From positions 124,001 through 188,000 of the forward strand of contig NC_009675.1 in assembly GCF_000017505.1 (NCBI RefSeq): a DNA stretch of 64,000 bases, written 5' to 3'. The DNA is from Anaeromyxobacter sp. Fw109-5 (GTDB taxonomy: Bacteria > Myxococcota > Myxococcia > Myxococcales > Anaeromyxobacteraceae). Below, piece by piece: positions 10,709 through 17,707 of this stretch (position 1 is the stretch's first letter; the number at the start of each line of letters is the position of its first letter). The translations under genes were made by a program, and so were the position numbers. A model generated the notes under the pieces. The model was given only the letters and a program-made list of their open reading frames with translations. It had not been told where the DNA came from and did not search any database.

Positions 10709-11317
10709 TCACCTCCCACGCGGACGGACCCGCGCCCGTCCGGACGATCGTGCCGCTCGCCTCGCCGAGCGCTCTCCGGGGGCGCCGGCGGTCGAGTCGA
10801 GCCGCTTCTCCATGCGAACCGCGGCGAGCGAGGTCTCGCCCGGGAGCGGGACGCGCGCGGCGCCGCGCCGCCCGAAGCCGAGCCGCGCGTAGAACGGGAC
10901 GGCCCCGAGCGCCGCCACGACCCGGAGCCTCGCCACCCCGGCGCGGCGCGCGGCGCGCTCGACGTGCCGGACGAGCGCCGTCCCCACGCCGGCGCCGGCG
11001 GCGCGCGGGAGCACGAACACCGCGGTGAGCTCCGCGTCGCGGCGCGCCGCGTACCCGACGATCGCCCCGTCCCGCTCCGCGACGACGTAGCGCTCGCCCC
11101 CGGCCGTCATGGCCCAGCGGTGGTACAGGGCCGGGAGCGACGACCAGGCGCGGACCTCCGAGTGGCCGTAGGCGGCGGCGCCCTGCCCGCGGATGGCGGC
11201 GCGCATCACGCGCGCGAGGGCGGGGGCGTCGGCGACGTCCCCCGCGCGGAGCCTGGGCGCGCGAGGGGCGCGGCGCGGCGGTGGCGCGCCGCCCGACGCG
11301 GCGGTGCGTCCGCTCAC
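10709..11317 (-). CDS. GNAT family N-acetyltransferase
   Basis: About 202 residues if it starts at GTG 11317, which overlaps the stop of the sigma-54 regulator (GTGA). It has the GNAT core: a substrate strand (RYVVAERDGAIVGYAARR), motif A VFVLPRAAGAGVGTALVRHV binding acetyl-CoA, and motif B (AVPFYARLGFGRRG). A basic Arg/Ser tail of about 30 residues follows the domain and is probably disordered. The target is unknown. Its position after a two-component pair hints at protein acetylation in the same response, but this is only context. Confidence 0.82.
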   Translation of the reverse strand: MSGRTAASGGAPPPRRAPRAPRLRAGDVADAPALARVMRAAIRGQGAAAYGHSEVRAWSSLPALYHRWAMTAGGERYVVAERDGAIVGYAARRDAELTAVFVLPRAAGAGVGTALVRHVERAARRAGVARLRVVAALGAVPFYARLGFGRRGAARVPLPGETSLAAVRMEKRLDSTAGAPGERSARRAARSSGRARVRPRGR

Positions 11318-12687
11318 GCCTTGGCGTCCTTCTCCACGAGGCCGTAGCGCTGGAGCTTCTCGTACAGGGTGGAGCGATGGAGCCCGGCCGCCTCGGCGGC
11401 CTTCGCGACGTTGCCGCCCGCCTCGCGCAGCAGGTCCTCGAGGAACTTCCGCTCCCAGGCGTCGCGGGCGCGCCGGTAGCGCCCCTCCGCCCCGCCCGCG
11501 GCGGCTTCGGCGGCGGGCTGGGCGAGCTCGGGCGGGAGATCCGCGAGGGTGATGGTCTCCCCGCGCGCGAGGAGGAGCCCGCGCTCGATGGCGTGCTCCA
11601 GCTCGCGGATGTTGCCCGGCCAGGGGTGGTCGAGGAGCGCCCGCATCGCCTCGGCGTCCGGCTCGAGCGGCGGCCGCCCCAGCCGCAGCGCGTGCTTCTC
11701 CACGAAGTGGTGGACGAGGAGCGGGATGTCCTCCTTCCGCTCGCGCAGGGGCGGGAGCCGCAGCGGGACGACGCGCAGCCGGAACCACAGGTCCTCGCGG
11801 AACTTCCCCTCCTTCACCGCGCGGGCGAGGTCCTCGTTCGTGGCCGCCACCACGCGCACGTTCCCCTTGCGCGCCTTGCGGCTGCCGACCGGGATGTACT
11901 CGCCGTCCTGCAGGACGCGCAGGAGCTTGGGCTGGAGCGCGGGCGGGAGGAGCCCGATCTCGTCGAGGAACAGCGTGCCCCCCTCCGCCTCGGCGAAGAA
12001 GCCGGCCCGCGCCTGCTCGGCGCCGGTGAAGGCCCCCTTCTCGTGGCCGAAGAGCTCGGCCTCGGCGAGGTTCTCGGGGATGGCGCTCATGTTGAGCGCC
12101 ACGTAGGGTCCGCTCGCGCGCCGGCTCATGGCGTGCGCCGCGCGCGCGAGAAGGTCCTTGCCGGTGCCGGACTCGCCCTCCACCAGGATGGGCACGTCGG
12201 AGGGGGCGATCCGCCCGAGCATCTCCACGAGGGCCTTCATCGGCTGCGACTTGCCGATGATGCCGTGCACGCCGAACTCGCCGGCGAGCGCGCTCCGCAG
12301 GCGCGCGTTGTCGCGCTTGATGCGCGCGTGCTCCACCGCGCGCGCGACCACGAGCTCGAGCTCCTCCGGCTCGAAGGGCTTCTTGAGGTAGTCGAAGGCG
12401 CCGGCCTTCATCGCCTCGACCGCGGTCTCCACGGTGGCGAAGGCCGTGACGAGGATGACCGGGATCTCCGGCACCCGCTCCTTGAAGCGGCGCATCCCCT
12501 CGATGCCGTCGATGCCGGGCATGCGCAGGTCGGTGACGATGGCGTCGAACTCCGCCCGCTCGACGGCGGGCAGCGCCTCCGCCACCGAGGCGAAGTCGAA
12601 CACCGCGTACGACCGCCCCAGCGTGCGCTTCATCATCTGCCGCGCGGAGTCGAGGTCGTCGATGACCATCAGGTTGGGCTTCGTCAC
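11314..12687 (-). CDS. Sigma-54-dependent response regulator (NtrC family)
   Basis: 457 residues in three domains. Receiver 1-120 with Asp53 in VTDLRMPG and Lys102; AAA+ domain about 140-375 with Walker A GESGTGKD (171-178), GAFTGA loop (218-223), Walker B TLFLDEIG and the arginine-finger region FREDLWFRL; C-terminal Fis-type HTH (GGNVAKAAEAAGLHRSTLYE). The intact GAFTGA means it should activate RNA polymerase-sigma-54. It lies 38 nt downstream of its kinase and shares an operon with a 12-heme cytochrome. A candidate -24/-12 promoter at 16971-16986 is an obvious target. Confidence 0.95.
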   Translation of the reverse strand: MTKPNLMVIDDLDSARQMMKRTLGRSYAVFDFASVAEALPAVERAEFDAIVTDLRMPGIDGIEGMRRFKERVPEIPVILVTAFATVETAVEAMKAGAFDYLKKPFEPEELELVVARAVEHARIKRDNARLRSALAGEFGVHGIIGKSQPMKALVEMLGRIAPSDVPILVEGESGTGKDLLARAAHAMSRRASGPYVALNMSAIPENLAEAELFGHEKGAFTGAEQARAGFFAEAEGGTLFLDEIGLLPPALQPKLLRVLQDGEYIPVGSRKARKGNVRVVAATNEDLARAVKEGKFREDLWFRLRVVPLRLPPLRERKEDIPLLVHHFVEKHALRLGRPPLEPDAEAMRALLDHPWPGNIRELEHAIERGLLLARGETITLADLPPELAQPAAEAAAGGAEGRYRRARDAWERKFLEDLLREAGGNVAKAAEAAGLHRSTLYEKLQRYGLVEKDAKA

Positions 12688-12725: not shown

Positions 12726-14219
12726 TCACGGCGCGGCGCCTGCGCCCGCCGCGGCCGGCTCGGCCGGCGCGACGGGCAGGCGGATGCGGAAGGTGGCGCC
12801 GTGGCCGGGGGCGCTCTCGACCTCCACCGTGCCGCCGTGGGCCTCCGCCGCCTGGCGCACGATGGCCAGCCCGAGGCCGGTGCCGTTCGCCTTGGTGGTG
12901 AAGAACGGGTCGAAGACGTGGGCGGCGATGTCCCTCGGCAGGCCCGGGCCGCTGTCCGACACCTCCACCACGAGCCCGTCTCCCTCGCGGCGCGCGCGCG
13001 CGACGAGCGTCCCGCCCCCGCGCTCCTGCATCGCCTGCACGGCGTTGACGCAGAGGTTCAGGAAGGCCTGGCGGAGCAGCTCGCCGTCGGCCACCACCTC
13101 CGGCAGCGCGGGCGCGATCTCGACCACGCGCTCGACGTTCGCGTGCGCCGCGGCCGGCCCGACCACCTCCACCGCCTCGCGCAGGATCGGCTCGACGGGC
13201 TGCGCGATGGGGTGCACCGTGCGCGCGCGCGCGAAGACCAGGAACCGCTCGATCAGCCCGGCCGCGCGGGTGACCTCGCGCCGGATCGCCTCCACGTCGG
13301 ACTTCACCTCGGCGTCGGCGGGCAGCTCGCGCGCCGCCACCGAGGCGTAGCCGCGGATGACGTTCAGGGAGTTGCCGATCTCGTGGGCGAAGCCGGCGGC
13401 GATGCCGCCCAGCGTGGCGAGGCGGTCCGCGCGCAGCACCTCGCGGGTCTTCTGCGCGACGCGCGCCTCCAGCTCGGCGATGAGCCGCTGGTTCTCGCTG
13501 CGCCGGTCGTCGAGCCGCCGCGACATGTCGTTGAAGGCGCGCACCAGATCGGCGAGCTCGCGCTCCTCGGGCTCCTCGAGGCGGACGCCGCGCTCCTCCG
13601 CGAGCGACTCGGCGGCCTCGGAGAGCCGCACGAGCGGGCTCGTCACGCGGCGCAGGAAGATGGCGGCGAGGAGCTGCCCGACGAAGATCCAGAAGGCGGC
13701 GACGATGCTCGCCCCCCACGCCAGGTTGCGGGCGTTCCCCACCACCTCCTCGTGCGTGAAGTCCACCCGGACGGCCCCCACCACGGCGCCGCTGCGCAGG
13801 ATGGGAGCGGAGGCCACGATGCCCTCCGGCTGGAGCAGCCGCCCGAGCGCCTGGAGCGGGGACTCGGCGAGCTGGAACTCCGAGGGCGGGGCGCCCTCGG
13901 GGCAGGCCTCCTCGGTGCGCGTGACGCAGGCGAGGACCTTGCCGGTCCGGTCGACGATCCAGGCGCGGTCGAGCGGCGCGCTCGCGACCACGCGCTCGAG
14001 CACCGCCGGCAGCGCGGAGGCGCCGCCCGGGTCCACGCCGTCGGCGCGGACCCAGTGGGCGGCGGCGGTGGCGGCGGTGGAGGCGATGGCGACGCCCTCG
14101 CGCGCCAGGAGCTCCTGCCCGCGCACCACCTCGCGCCAGAGCGCCACGGCGGTGACGCCGCTCATCGCGAAGATGATCACCCCCGCGATGAGCACGAAGA
14201 GCTTGAGCCGGAGGGTCAC
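12726..14219 (-). CDS. Membrane sensor histidine kinase of the cytochrome operon
   Basis: 497 residues from GTG 14219 (GTGA overlap with the cytochrome stop). TM1 about 6-27, a periplasmic sensor of about 135 residues with no heme motif but two cysteines (Cys98, Cys106), TM2 about 168-189, a HAMP linker, HisKA with His279 in GFAHEIGNSLNV, N box NLCVNAVQAM, and G boxes SDSGPGLP and GTGLGLAIV. It is probably the partner of the NtrC-type regulator immediately downstream. The input signal is unknown; redox or electron acceptor sensing is inferred from the neighbouring cytochromes. Confidence 0.93.
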   Translation of the reverse strand: MTLRLKLFVLIAGVIIFAMSGVTAVALWREVVRGQELLAREGVAIASTAATAAAHWVRADGVDPGGASALPAVLERVVASAPLDRAWIVDRTGKVLACVTRTEEACPEGAPPSEFQLAESPLQALGRLLQPEGIVASAPILRSGAVVGAVRVDFTHEEVVGNARNLAWGASIVAAFWIFVGQLLAAIFLRRVTSPLVRLSEAAESLAEERGVRLEEPEERELADLVRAFNDMSRRLDDRRSENQRLIAELEARVAQKTREVLRADRLATLGGIAAGFAHEIGNSLNVIRGYASVAARELPADAEVKSDVEAIRREVTRAAGLIERFLVFARARTVHPIAQPVEPILREAVEVVGPAAAHANVERVVEIAPALPEVVADGELLRQAFLNLCVNAVQAMQERGGGTLVARARREGDGLVVEVSDSGPGLPRDIAAHVFDPFFTTKANGTGLGLAIVRQAAEAHGGTVEVESAPGHGATFRIRLPVAPAEPAAAGAGAAP

Positions 14220-15124
14220 GGCGACGACTCCCCGCGCGGCGGCGGCCGCGGCGCCCCGCCGAACTCGTGGCAGGCGGTGCACGACTTGCCGTGCGCGTGG
14301 CTCTGGGCATGCGCGTGGCAGCGGAGGCACCGCGCCGGCTCCGGGGTCCAGGTGTGGGCCGGGTGGCAGTCCAGGCAGCGGAAGTGGCCGGGGTTCGCGT
14401 GCAGCCCGGCGCGGCGGGTCGCCGGCGCGTCGTGGCAGTGCGTGCAGGAGACGAGCGTCTCGCCCGGCGGCGCGTGCGGCCGGTGACAGGTCGCGCAGGC
14501 CATCGCCATGGGCGCGCCGTGCTCCCCCACCGGCGCGTGGATGCCCTGGGCCGTGTGGCAGCGCAGGCAGTCGCGCCGGGTCGGCCGCAGCCCCGGCTCG
14601 TCGCCGAGGAACTCGTGGCAGGCGAAGCAGTGCATCCCCTCCATGCCGTGGACCCGCACCGCGTGGCCCGGGTGGCAGTCGGCGCACTTCGCCGCGATGG
14701 GCTCGAAGCCGTGCATGCTCGCGGCGTGGCAGCGGACGCAGGCGATCTTGTGCTCCTCGTAGTGGATGCGGTGCCCGCGCGAGCCGCCGACCTGCGGCCA
14801 GCGCGGATCGTGCGAGAAGTGGCACTCCGCGCACGAGCCGATCTCCACCCCGCCGTGCCCCGCCGGCGCCTTGCCGAGCAGGAACGCGCCCAGCATGGCG
14901 ACGCCCTGCTCCGGGCGCGCGTGGTGGCAGCGCTGGCAGGCGACGCTCTTGTGCGTGCCCTGCATCCACAGGGCGAACTCCGGGCTCGCCTGGTGGCAGG
15001 TCGCGCACAGCCGCGGATCCTCGTCGACGTAGCGCTTGAAGCGCAGGCCGCCGGCGACCGCGGCGGCGACCGCCAGGGCGGCGACGGCGAGGAGCAGCGT
15101 CTTCGCGGTGCGTCCGAGCCTCAT
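14216..15124 (-). CDS. Membrane-anchored dodecaheme cytochrome c
   Basis: 302 residues with 12 CxxCH motifs counted directly (CATCH, CQRCH, CAECH, CVRCH, CADCH, CFACH, CLRCH, CATCH, CTHCH, CLDCH, CLRCH, CTACH). Residues about 8-27 form an uncleaved N-terminal anchor. The first heme segment (VDEDPRLCATCHQASPEF) resembles the NapC/NirT/NrfH quinol dehydrogenase start. There are many extra His residues for distal ligation. It probably moves electrons from the inner membrane through the periplasm. ATG start. A TACAAT box 10 nt upstream gives it a promoter separate from the upstream oxidoreductase gene. Confidence 0.93.
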   Translation of the reverse strand: MRLGRTAKTLLLAVAALAVAAAVAGGLRFKRYVDEDPRLCATCHQASPEFALWMQGTHKSVACQRCHHARPEQGVAMLGAFLLGKAPAGHGGVEIGSCAECHFSHDPRWPQVGGSRGHRIHYEEHKIACVRCHAASMHGFEPIAAKCADCHPGHAVRVHGMEGMHCFACHEFLGDEPGLRPTRRDCLRCHTAQGIHAPVGEHGAPMAMACATCHRPHAPPGETLVSCTHCHDAPATRRAGLHANPGHFRCLDCHPAHTWTPEPARCLRCHAHAQSHAHGKSCTACHEFGGAPRPPPRGESSP

Positions 15125-15130
15125 GGGGGA

Positions 15131-15145
15131 GGCGATTGTATCGCC
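15131..15145 (-). promoter_or_regulatory. -10 box overlapped by a palindrome, 12-heme operon
   Basis: TACAAT on the minus strand (15135-15140) lies 10 nt before the cytochrome ATG. The palindrome GGCGAT-TGT-ATCGCC (15131-15145) sits directly on it, an arrangement typical of a repressor operator. No good -35 element is visible. Confidence 0.5.
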
Positions 15146-15179
15146 CCCGCGCGCCCGCCGCGCGCGGGCCCCCGCGCGG

Positions 15180-15217
15180 AAAAAGAGGGGGGCCGCACGG
15201 TCGCCCGCGCGGCCCCC
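15180..15217 (-). terminator. Rho-independent terminator after the CbcL-like gene
   Basis: On the minus strand GGGGGCCGC (15217-15209) pairs with GCGGCCCCC (15196-15188), followed by TCTTTTT (15186-15180). It is the most classical intrinsic terminator in the window. It ends the oxidoreductase transcript 25 nt after its stop and before the 12-heme gene. Confidence 0.85.
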
Positions 15218-15241: not shown

Positions 15242-16954
15242 CTACTTCTGCTCGTCGCTCATCCGGTCGTACTCGAGCGGATGCTCGTGCTTCATCATCT
15301 CCACGCTGATCCGGCCGTTCAGCCAGGCCCAGTTCATCGGGAAGATCGAGGGCTTCAGGTGCACGTTGTAGAAGTGCACGACGAAGAGGAACAGGATGGC
15401 GAGCGTCGCCTCCTCGCCGTGGATGATGAGCGCGGCGGTGATGAGCCAGCTCGGCGCCCAGGCGGCGAAGAAGGCCGGGAACCAGAAGATGAAGCCGGTG
15501 CCGACCATCATCACGATGCCCCAGAACACGGCCCAGTAGTCGAACTTCTCCAGGTACATGTACCGGTCGAACTTGGGCCGCTCCTTCTTCACGCCGAGCA
15601 TGAAGAGGATGTTGTCGCGCATGTCGAGCGCGTCCTTCGGGCCCGGCAGCATCGACAGGGGCAGCCGCTTCTGGGAGGCGAGGAACGTCAGGTAGAACAG
15701 GTGGTAGGCGGCCGAGATGATGATCAGGACGGCGCCGACGCGGTGCCACAGCGCCGCGCCCTCCGCGCCCCCGAAGATCTTCATGAACGCCTCGGAGTAG
15801 GGGGCCGCGTCCCTGCCGCCGATGATGGGCGCGTTCCCGAACGTCCCGGCGCCGCGCAGCGGCCAGCCGGTGATGCCGAGCAGGATGACGCCCGACAGCA
15901 TGAACCAGTGCTGGATGCGCTGGTGGATGTCGAAGCGGATGACGCTCCGCACCGCGTCCGCCGACGGACCGTGGCCCTGCTTCGCCTTGAGGCGCTGGCG
16001 CAGCTCGTACACGAAGTCGACGACGACGTGGAAGGCGAAGAAGAGCAGGGTGAGGGTCGTCAGGTACGAGAAGGCGATGTGGATGACGTGCGGGACCGGG
16101 TGCCCGCCCGTCTCCTGCGGCGTCTCGTGCGCGATGAGCGAGGCGAAGTTGTCCGTGGCGCCCGCGTGGCAGCGCGCGCACGCGTCCTTGCGGTTCGCCA
16201 CGTTCACGATCGAGTTCGGGTCGGTCTTCGCCACGATCGCGTGCGTGCCGCCCTTGCCCTGCGGGGCGGCGTGGCAGCTCACGCAGACGGGCGCGAAGGC
16301 GTTGCCCACGCGGACCATCCGGCCGTGGATCGAGTCGTGGTAGTTGACCGTGGCCTCCGGCTTGAGACCGGCGACGGCGGCGAACTCCTCGTTGCCGTGG
16401 CAGCCCTCGCAGCGCCGCGTCATCTCGCGGCGGTCGGCGGGCACCGGCTGGCGCGCCTCGGCCTTCGGGTCGTAGAAGGCGAGGGACTTCACCGCGTGCA
16501 CCGAGCCGTGGCAGGAGGCGCAGGTCGGGCCGGACGCCTTCGTGTCCTCGCGCAGCCACTTCGAGTGGATCGAGGCGGCGAACGCGTCGGTCTGCTCGGT
16601 GTGGCAGTTCTGGCAGGCCAGGTAGGCGCGCGGCGAGGTGACCGCCACCTTCTGGCCCTCCTCGCCGAAGGTGCCCTTCTCCAGCCGGGCGACGAACTGC
16701 TGCTCCGCGTCCGAGAGCGGCGGGAGCGTGCCGCCCATCGCGTGCTCCTCGGTGTAGCCCGCGTGGCAGTCCGTGCAGGCGACGCCGTTCTCCGCGTGGA
16801 CGGACTTGGCGAAGGTGTCGGCGTGGACGGTGGGCCCGTCGCCGCCGGGGGAGTGGCACTGCAGGCAGGTGTCGCTGCCCTCGGGCAGCTTGGGCCCCTC
16901 CGCCCGAGCGGCGGGGGCGAGGAGGAGCGCGAAGGAGAGGAGGATGGCTCGCAT
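15242..16954 (-). CDS. CbcL-like heptaheme cytochrome c / diheme cytochrome b fusion
   Basis: 570 residues. Signal peptide 1 to about 18 (MRAILLSFALLLAPAARA), then a periplasmic domain with seven CxxCH motifs (CLQCH, CTDCH, CQNCH, CASCH, CEGCH, CVSCH, CARCH). Five hydrophobic helices of a formate dehydrogenase-gamma/cytochrome b561-type domain follow, with candidate b-heme histidines in HQRIQHWFML, HRVGAVLIII and IIHGEEATLA. The multiheme c plus diheme b combination resembles Geobacter CbcL, an inner-membrane menaquinol:cytochrome c oxidoreductase for low-potential Fe(III) respiration. The same role is inferred here. ATG 16954 is preferred over TTG 16975 because it begins the signal peptide and the TTG overlaps the sigma-54 element. 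Confidence 0.88.
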   Translation of the reverse strand: MRAILLSFALLLAPAARAEGPKLPEGSDTCLQCHSPGGDGPTVHADTFAKSVHAENGVACTDCHAGYTEEHAMGGTLPPLSDAEQQFVARLEKGTFGEEGQKVAVTSPRAYLACQNCHTEQTDAFAASIHSKWLREDTKASGPTCASCHGSVHAVKSLAFYDPKAEARQPVPADRREMTRRCEGCHGNEEFAAVAGLKPEATVNYHDSIHGRMVRVGNAFAPVCVSCHAAPQGKGGTHAIVAKTDPNSIVNVANRKDACARCHAGATDNFASLIAHETPQETGGHPVPHVIHIAFSYLTTLTLLFFAFHVVVDFVYELRQRLKAKQGHGPSADAVRSVIRFDIHQRIQHWFMLSGVILLGITGWPLRGAGTFGNAPIIGGRDAAPYSEAFMKIFGGAEGAALWHRVGAVLIIISAAYHLFYLTFLASQKRLPLSMLPGPKDALDMRDNILFMLGVKKERPKFDRYMYLEKFDYWAVFWGIVMMVGTGFIFWFPAFFAAWAPSWLITAALIIHGEEATLAILFLFVVHFYNVHLKPSIFPMNWAWLNGRISVEMMKHEHPLEYDRMSDEQK

Positions 16955-16970
16955 AGGCGGGGTTCGCGTG

Positions 16971-16986
16971 TGCAACCGATATGCCC
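16971..16986 (-). promoter_or_regulatory. Candidate sigma-54 (-24/-12) promoter
   Basis: Minus-strand GGGCATATCGGTTGCA matches the -24/-12 consensus TGGCACG-N4-TTGCA with the invariant GG, GC and spacing intact; only the first T and the G after CA/T differ. The predicted start (about 16960) leaves a leader of only about 6 nt before ATG 16954. This is unusual but fits other leaders in this window. Confidence 0.55.
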
Positions 16987-17008
16987 CTGCGCCCCAAACG
17001 GCTCGGAG

Positions 17009-17077
17009 CGCAAGGGGGCGTTATCGTTCAGGTTTGCGATGAATCAATCGTCGGGAGGTCGCAAAGGTTGCGCGCAA
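17009..17077. promoter_or_regulatory. Cluster of TTGCG/CGCAA half-sites (possible activator sites)
   Basis: Five half-sites in 69 bp: CGCAA 17009-17013, TTGCG 17034-17038, CGCAA 17060-17064, TTGCG 17068-17072, CGCAA 17073-17077. Two form a spaced inverted repeat TTTGCGA (17033-17039)/TCGCAAA (17059-17065) and two a perfect palindrome TTGCGCGCAA (17068-17077). They lie about 25-110 bp upstream of the sigma-54 element, the usual place for enhancer sites. Confidence 0.45.
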
Positions 17078-17166
17078 GCCTTCCGTTCGGGAAAGGCTGC
17101 GCGTCGGCGCGCACCCGCCGATGAACGCGCGAGCCCGGGGAGGTCCCGGCGGCGGCGCCTCGGCGG

Positions 17167-17472
17167 CTACTTGCTCGACGCCTCCTGCGCGGCGGGCTTG
17201 CGGGAGGCGAGGCTGGTCAGCGCGCCCACGCCCGCGCCGGCGGCGGCGCCCATCACGGCGAACAGCGACCCGACCCCGGCGACGCCGAGCACGATCCCGA
17301 ACACGATGAGCCCGCGGACGAGGAACGTCGCCTGGAGCGGCGTGCCGAAGATGCCGCCCGCGAGCAGCACGCCGGCGTAGCCGCCGTACAGCATGGCCGG
17401 GAGGAGCGCGACGGCGAGGAAGAGGGCGAGGCCGATGCCGGCGCCGATGAGGGAGGGGGTCTTGCTCTGCAT
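17167..17472 (-). CDS. Small hypothetical membrane protein
   Basis: 101 residues with a short polar N-terminus and two long hydrophobic, Gly/Ala-rich stretches (about residues 8-45 and 50-87), each perhaps one or two helices. The tail is Lys/Ser-rich. No family is recognised. ATG 17472 has AGGAGA 7 nt upstream, one of the better Shine-Dalgarno sites here. The 235-bp gap upstream of it (17473-17707) shows no gene or clear signal. Confidence 0.65.
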   Translation of the reverse strand: MQSKTPSLIGAGIGLALFLAVALLPAMLYGGYAGVLLAGGIFGTPLQATFLVRGLIVFGIVLGVAGVGSLFAVMGAAAGAGVGALTSLASRKPAAQEASSK

Positions 17473-17707
17473 CTCGGTTCTCCTGGTTGGCTGCGGTCTG
17501 AAAGGTCCCGGCGATCCGCACCGCATCGCGTCCGCCGTGCCCGCTCCCCACTGCACGACCGTTGCCAGGATCGCGGCGCCTCGTGTCGCGGGCTTGCGCG
17601 ATCGGTCGTCGGGAACTCCCGACACCCCGCCGGAGGGCGACGACATCGCGCCGAGCGCTCCACATCGCCGCGCGGCGCGGGGGGACGGGCCGAAGGGCGC
17701 CGTGGGG

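Follow-up and report, generated by a model that had tools for sequence, protein, structure and literature searches.

The control region of the CbcL-like cytochrome gene of Anaeromyxobacter sp. Fw109-5 (G000; genome of 5,277,990 bases) likely carries two stacked inputs: an enhancer, Box A, through which NmpR would drive a sigma-54 promoter, and an FNR-type site, Box B, that belongs to a sigma-70 promoter. The gene lies in the window analysed here, i.e. the whole stretch of 64,000 nucleotides at G000:C1:124001-188000, and the positions below are those of the window. The elements concerned are as follows.

15242 to 16954, minus strand: CbcL-like gene, 570 aa, with its ATG at 16954 (Pfam PF14522 and PF01292; heme count).
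16971 to 16986, minus strand: -24/-12 element GGGCATATCGGTTGCA (sigma-54), GG-N10-GC, facing the CbcL-like gene.
17007 to 17012, minus strand: position of the sigma-70 -10 hexamer that goes with Box B; the sequence in Fw109-5 is TGCGCT, a decayed form.
17034 to 17047, minus strand: Box B TTGATTCATCGCAA, a TTG-N8-CAA site of the FNR/CRP type, found at 19 of the 22 loci.
17059 to 17073, minus strand: Box A GCGCAACCTTTGCGA, predicted NmpR-type enhancer site, matching GCGCA-N5-TGCGC at 9 of 10 positions.
17088 to 17102, minus strand: GCGCAGCCTTTCCCG, perhaps a second, degenerate site, which lies 29 nt upstream of Box A and has only its GCGCA half intact.

An earlier note on this DNA had read an intact, correctly spaced -24/-12 element facing the CbcL-like gene, a sigma-54 promoter in need of an NtrC-type activator and a predicted leader of 6 nt, and these three points are borne out. 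Both the GG at -24 and the GC at -12 are intact with N10 between them, and 9 of the 12 consensus positions used for scoring agree. On its own the element is weak evidence, since eight sites in the 64 kb, both strands counted, score at least 9/12; it becomes convincing because it is conserved among orthologous loci. A search of 60 relatives for orthologues of the CbcL-like gene gave 22 full-length or nearly full-length loci (L001-L022; the counts exclude weaker matches to paralogues and L023, a C-terminal fragment lying at the end of a contig). An element of at least 8/12, with invariant GG and GC, lies downstream of Box A in 16 of the 22, these 16 Box A-positive loci coming from four genera and not being independent of one another. 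The genome of Fw109-5 has one copy of rpoN (one Sigma54_DBD match). The predicted start near 16960 leaves 6 nt before the ATG, and such a very short predicted leader is conserved: it measures 5-7 nt in 12 of the 22 loci, 10-11 nt in four and 16-17 nt in two, and is much longer or undefinable in four. As no Shine-Dalgarno sequence is visible ahead of the ATG of the CbcL-like gene in Fw109-5 and the signal peptide begins at that very codon, a near-leaderless mRNA is the simplest reading of the predicted leader.

Upstream of this element, TTGCG/CGCAA half-sites start at 17009, 17034, 17060, 17068 and 17073. The claim that they are unusually dense is well founded: nowhere else in the window are they packed as densely within 69 bp, the window's own rate giving an expectation of 0.067, and when the intergenic region was shuffled 2000 times with dinucleotides preserved, five half-sites in 69 bp were never reached. 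The comparison across genomes that had been proposed as a check gave a divided answer, the -24/-12 element being conserved and the half-sites only in part. The half-site at 17009 is in place at none of the 21 other loci, and that at 17073 elsewhere only at L002 and L003. The idea that all five constitute the cluster of one activator was therefore rejected; in 16 of the 22 loci the conserved half-sites instead make up a pair of elements, namely Box A (GCA-N5-TGC) and Box B (TTG-N8-CAA). Likewise, 16 of the 22 combine CGCA-N5-TGC and YTG-N8-CAA with a -24/-12 element scoring 8/12 or more.

Box A has the form of an NmpR enhancer. In Myxococcus, NmpR is an NtrC-type regulator acting under an oxygen-sensing globin kinase; as described in the available parts of PMC11841059, it binds GCGCA-N5-TGCGC in EMSA and activates sigma-54 promoters, and the core GCA-N5-TGC is invariant among the sites bound. 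All 16 Box A loci match GCGCA-N5-TGCGC at 8-9 of 10 positions and have the core with at most two deviations. Published NmpR promoters have two sites, mostly 14-15 nt apart, with a gap of 24 nt at the M. xanthus nmpU promoter (PMC11841059, same parts). A gap of 14-15 nt equals 29-30 nt from start to start, to be compared with the 29-32 nt at which a GCGCA half-site lies upstream of Box A in 12 of the 16 loci; this half-site is missing in the other four (L019-L022). Box B was also considered as the second NmpR site and rejected, because the CGCAA motifs of the two boxes are 34 nt apart and the right half of Box B does not fit GCA-N5-TGC. The distances from Box A to the sigma-54 element at cbcL (74, 85, 88, 96 and 102 nt) look helically phased, as far as sequences can indicate.

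If Box A is counted as paired when a sigma-54 element follows it at 70-105 nt, such a pair is found in 16 of the 22 cbcL regions, as against 0.18% of shuffled sequences and 1.0% of randomly chosen genomic segments. Single Box A motifs were rejected as stand-alone evidence, the motif CGCAANNNNTGCG showing no genome-wide enrichment in G000 (25+23 versus 29+62 for the control). Box A is absent from six of the 22 cbcL loci. At L018, Box B is present and the only sigma-54 score is weak and remote; L016 and L017 have a different enhancer together with TGGC-N8-TTGCT, and L015 has a different enhancer with its sigma-54 element far upstream.

The second input is indicated by a hexamer downstream of Box B. 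Of the 19 loci that have the box, 11 show TANNNT at a distance of exactly 21 nt downstream, and none shows it at any other offset from 8 to 35; this fixed position points to an FNR-type sigma-70 promoter upstream of the sigma-54 one. The start inferred from the hexamer falls about 41 bp after Box B, and a site about 41 bp before the start occupies the class II FNR position. The class II arrangement, a 14-bp box and a -10 hexamer with constant spacing between them, is thus found across the family and not in Fw109-5, where the hexamer reads TGCGCT, so that the Box B promoter has probably decayed there. L009 and L010, in turn, keep Box B and TAGAAT and have neither Box A nor a sigma-54 element. 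With the hexamer lost in Fw109-5 and the sigma-54 side lost in L009 and L010, the two inputs appear to have been gained and lost independently.

The proteins that could read both boxes are encoded in the same genome. Fw109-5 has an NmpR orthologue and a protoglobin kinase whose globin residues 2-161 are identical to those of AfGcHK (PDB 5OHE; PMC8697598). The nmp locus runs Crp/Fnr, Usp, CBS, protoglobin kinase, double receiver and hybrid kinase, with nmpR on the opposite strand. The Crp/Fnr protein contains RPETLSR, which we take to resemble the E--SR motif of FNR. Its gene heads the locus, and the promoter of this gene contains both GCA-N5-TGC and CGGGCCT-N6-TGC, i.e. GG-N10-GC, in all 21 genomes; in 20 of the 21 the former is present in two copies lying 39-41 nt apart from start to start (gap of 24-26). 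Box B accompanies them in 17 of the 21, being missing in Fw109-5, its two nearest relatives and G010. At the predicted start of the Crp/Fnr gene (L189:2540-2592) there is also a GATCAAG-like motif, kept in most genomes, which could be an autorepression site.

The pattern searches covered 25 genomes, 16 of them from the family of Fw109-5. In other families, all five NmpR-bearing genomes searched have paired Box A sites no more than about 11 kb away from the nmpR or protoglobin gene, and the four genomes without NmpR have no pair at all; reversed-pattern controls add up to 6 for either group. NmpRs from four other families share 76-80% identity with that of Fw109-5. No paired sites at the searched spacing were found in 6 of the 16 family genomes, G000 included, though NmpR is present there. 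Within the same 16, the combined Box A and Box B pattern has 22 matches, of which 12 lie at cbcL, nine at the Crp/Fnr gene and one elsewhere, as against three for the reversed control; Box B is thus observed at cbcL and at the Crp/Fnr gene.

Box A with a sigma-54 element also precedes a gene for a PpiC-type isomerase, which is followed by a reading frame with 26 CXXCH in both genomes inspected (G000 and G005). The PpiC-type gene is present in 12 of the 25 genomes (E at most 1e-40), and at its best copy Box A lies 74-88 nt before a sigma-54 element of 9-11/12 in all 12; the second copies in G004, G007 and G010 lack the pair (0 of 3). With this locus, three kinds of loci have Box A plus GG-N10-GC in common. 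Two further palindromes of the NmpR kind, separated by 23 bp, precede a transporter-like gene (L086, G000:C1:3918871-3918906); the 230 nt that follow contain no sigma-54 element scoring 8/12 or more.

These observations can be joined in a scheme whose oxygen direction, low oxygen meaning on, would follow the model proposed for M. xanthus, as given in the accessible text of PMC6211767. At low oxygen, the globin kinase AfGcHK/NmpU, at the top of the NmpRSTU relay, would stay off; NmpS would then phosphorylate NmpR, and NmpR bound at Box A would switch on sigma-54 polymerase at the -24/-12 element, and the resulting mRNA would have a leader of about 6 nt. Box B would be an FNR-type site positioned for class II activation of the upstream sigma-70 promoter, presumably by the Crp/Fnr protein of the nmp locus. 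Since the Crp/Fnr gene itself has Box A and usually Box B, a feed-forward loop from NmpR through the Fnr-like protein to cbcL would result. It is tempting to go further and see in AfGcHK-NmpR the switch by which oxygen governs extracellular respiration in Anaeromyxobacteraceae, acting on an inner-membrane cytochrome, the PpiC/26-heme locus and its own locus, which includes an FNR-like regulator, with a feed-forward loop and with sigma-54 and sigma-70 promoters interchanging in evolution; we regard this wider picture as slightly favoured on balance. The regulated cytochromes would then serve extracellular electron transfer, and the metal-breathing gear of this soil bacterium may be switched by oxygen.

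The earlier note had instead proposed a simple circuit of kinase, regulator and target, in which an NtrC-type regulator encoded next door would bind the TTGCG/CGCAA cluster and activate the CbcL-like gene. The neighbouring operon and a second group of signals upstream of the cbcL region bear on this proposal.

14216 to 15124, minus strand: cytochrome with 12 CXXCH, the first gene of the neighbouring operon (heme count).
12726 to 14219, minus strand: sensor histidine kinase of that operon (HAMP, HisKA, HATPase_c).
11314 to 12687, minus strand: adjacent NtrC-type response regulator (Response_reg, Sigma54_activat, HTH_8).
15180 to 15217, minus strand: terminator-like hairpin with a T run after the CbcL-like gene (read from the sequence).
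17167 to 17472, minus strand: gene for a small membrane protein, downstream of the second sigma-54-like element.
17552 to 17567, minus strand: second sigma-54-like element TGGCAACGGTCGTGCA.
17609 to 17622, minus strand: palindrome TCGGGAGTTCCCGA, a perfect TCGGGA-N2-TCCCGA and a separate putative enhancer.

The hairpin separates the CbcL-like gene from the operon, and similar hairpins occur in the five relatives shown. A TACAAT/TAGAAT-like -10 of the operon's own lies a few bases ahead of its start codon (15125-15217).

The sigma-54 element is real, the regulator is encoded close by, and its orthologue lies near the cbcL-like gene in 14 of the 16 family genomes searched, all of which speaks for the neighbour. 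Box A, however, also occurs at the nmp loci of families that lack an orthologue of this regulator (best matches of at most 51% identity), and G009 and G014 (genus g2), G011 (g4) and G012 (g5) retain the regulator with no Box A at cbcL, so the enhancer does not stay wherever regulator and target stay together. The regulator is 43% identical to NmpR of Fw109-5, with differing recognition helices (GLHRSTLYEKLQRY versus GISVRKIQYRLKEY), and the portion of its own operon that was read has a -10 of the sigma-70 kind with no Box A. Moreover, a different palindrome with its own sigma-54-like element is found nearby. In a survey of 21 sequences, in 14 of which cbcL was placed and to which the counts refer, this palindrome, with at most one mismatch, and a sigma-54-like element 55 nt downstream from start to start occur in seven genomes of the genus (G000-G006); three g2 genomes have three copies, with no more than two mismatches, immediately ahead of cbcL, and four of the 14 (G010, G011, G015 and G017) have none. 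To judge from the sequences, the palindrome is a more plausible site of the adjacent regulator than Box A. The neighbour-gene assumption is thereby corrected: the assignment of this protein as activator of the CbcL-like gene is probably wrong, and we consider its action through the half-site cluster unlikely.

Another enhancer-binding protein of similar specificity might read Box A in place of NmpR, each genome encoding many NtrC-type proteins. One candidate is an NmpR paralogue of 60-63% identity (about 62%), present in six members of the genus, at G001:C331, G002:C1:938637, G004:C101, G005:C1:970890, G007:C1:4005202 and G008:C102. At a cut-off of 1e-170, however, the paralogue is below threshold or absent in G000, G003 and G006, which have only the true NmpR and yet carry Box A at cbcL; this explanation therefore seems improbable. 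Least probable in our view is that an FNR-type protein acting at Box B through sigma-70 exerts the main control, Box A and the -24/-12 element being minor. The exact 21-nt offset of the hexamer, seen in 11 of 19 loci, and the loss of the whole sigma-54 side in L009 and L010 would suit it, but in Fw109-5 it is the hexamer that has changed while Box A and the sigma-54 element are intact, and the PpiC/26-heme locus also has Box A with a sigma-54 element. NmpR acting at Box A, stacked on an FNR-type input, remains the preferred reading.

The CbcL-like protein has seven CXXCH hemes and a Ni-hydrogenase-type cytochrome b domain. BccR was considered as what we took to be a Geobacter precedent; a literature search found none linking CbcL with bccR. 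GSU0274 and GSU0598 are absent from a Geobacter RpoN paper (PMC2725144). CbcL of Geobacter sulfurreducens likewise combines an N-terminal multiheme c part with a C-terminal b-type cytochrome, but it has nine CXXCH motifs and a six-helix b-type cytochrome, as against seven motifs with a b-type domain in Fw109-5, so that 'CbcL-like' is a description and not a statement of orthology; CbcL/MtrH/MtoC homologues carry 3-23 CXXCH motifs (PMC6295460, available parts).

With the M. xanthus NmpR promoters, as presented in the available parts of PMC11841059, the loci described here share the GCGCA-N5-TGCGC enhancer, the downstream sigma-54 element, control of the nmp locus itself (predicted here) and, among the associated genes, a protoglobin kinase and Usp and CBS proteins. 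The targets differ, being the cbb3 oxidase and hemN-hemerythrin promoters in M. xanthus and, by prediction, multiheme cytochromes and the Crp/Fnr gene here. Unlike the two-site promoters of M. xanthus, cbcL has a single full site accompanied at most by a half-site, and an FNR-type sigma-70 promoter overlaps its enhancer region. AfGcHK, described as the best studied globin-coupled oxygen sensor, is treated as a sensor protein in PMC8697598, with no target genes given in the available portion of that article. The 2025 paper PMC11841059 states that the genes under Nmp control in Anaeromyxobacter are unknown, and no Anaeromyxobacter target of NmpR is named in the accessible parts of that paper or of PMC6211767; both of these papers, and PMC12753109 too, mention Anaeromyxobacter together with NmpU. 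Three candidate Nmp target promoters, two of them at cytochrome loci, can now be named with exact sites, which makes the question directly testable. Like class II FNR-dependent promoters, the cbcL region has TTG-N8-CAA about 41 bp before the inferred start together with a -10 hexamer; unlike them, this putative promoter is stacked on a sigma-54 promoter, so that one gene has sigma-54 and sigma-70 inputs, each separately lost in some lineages.
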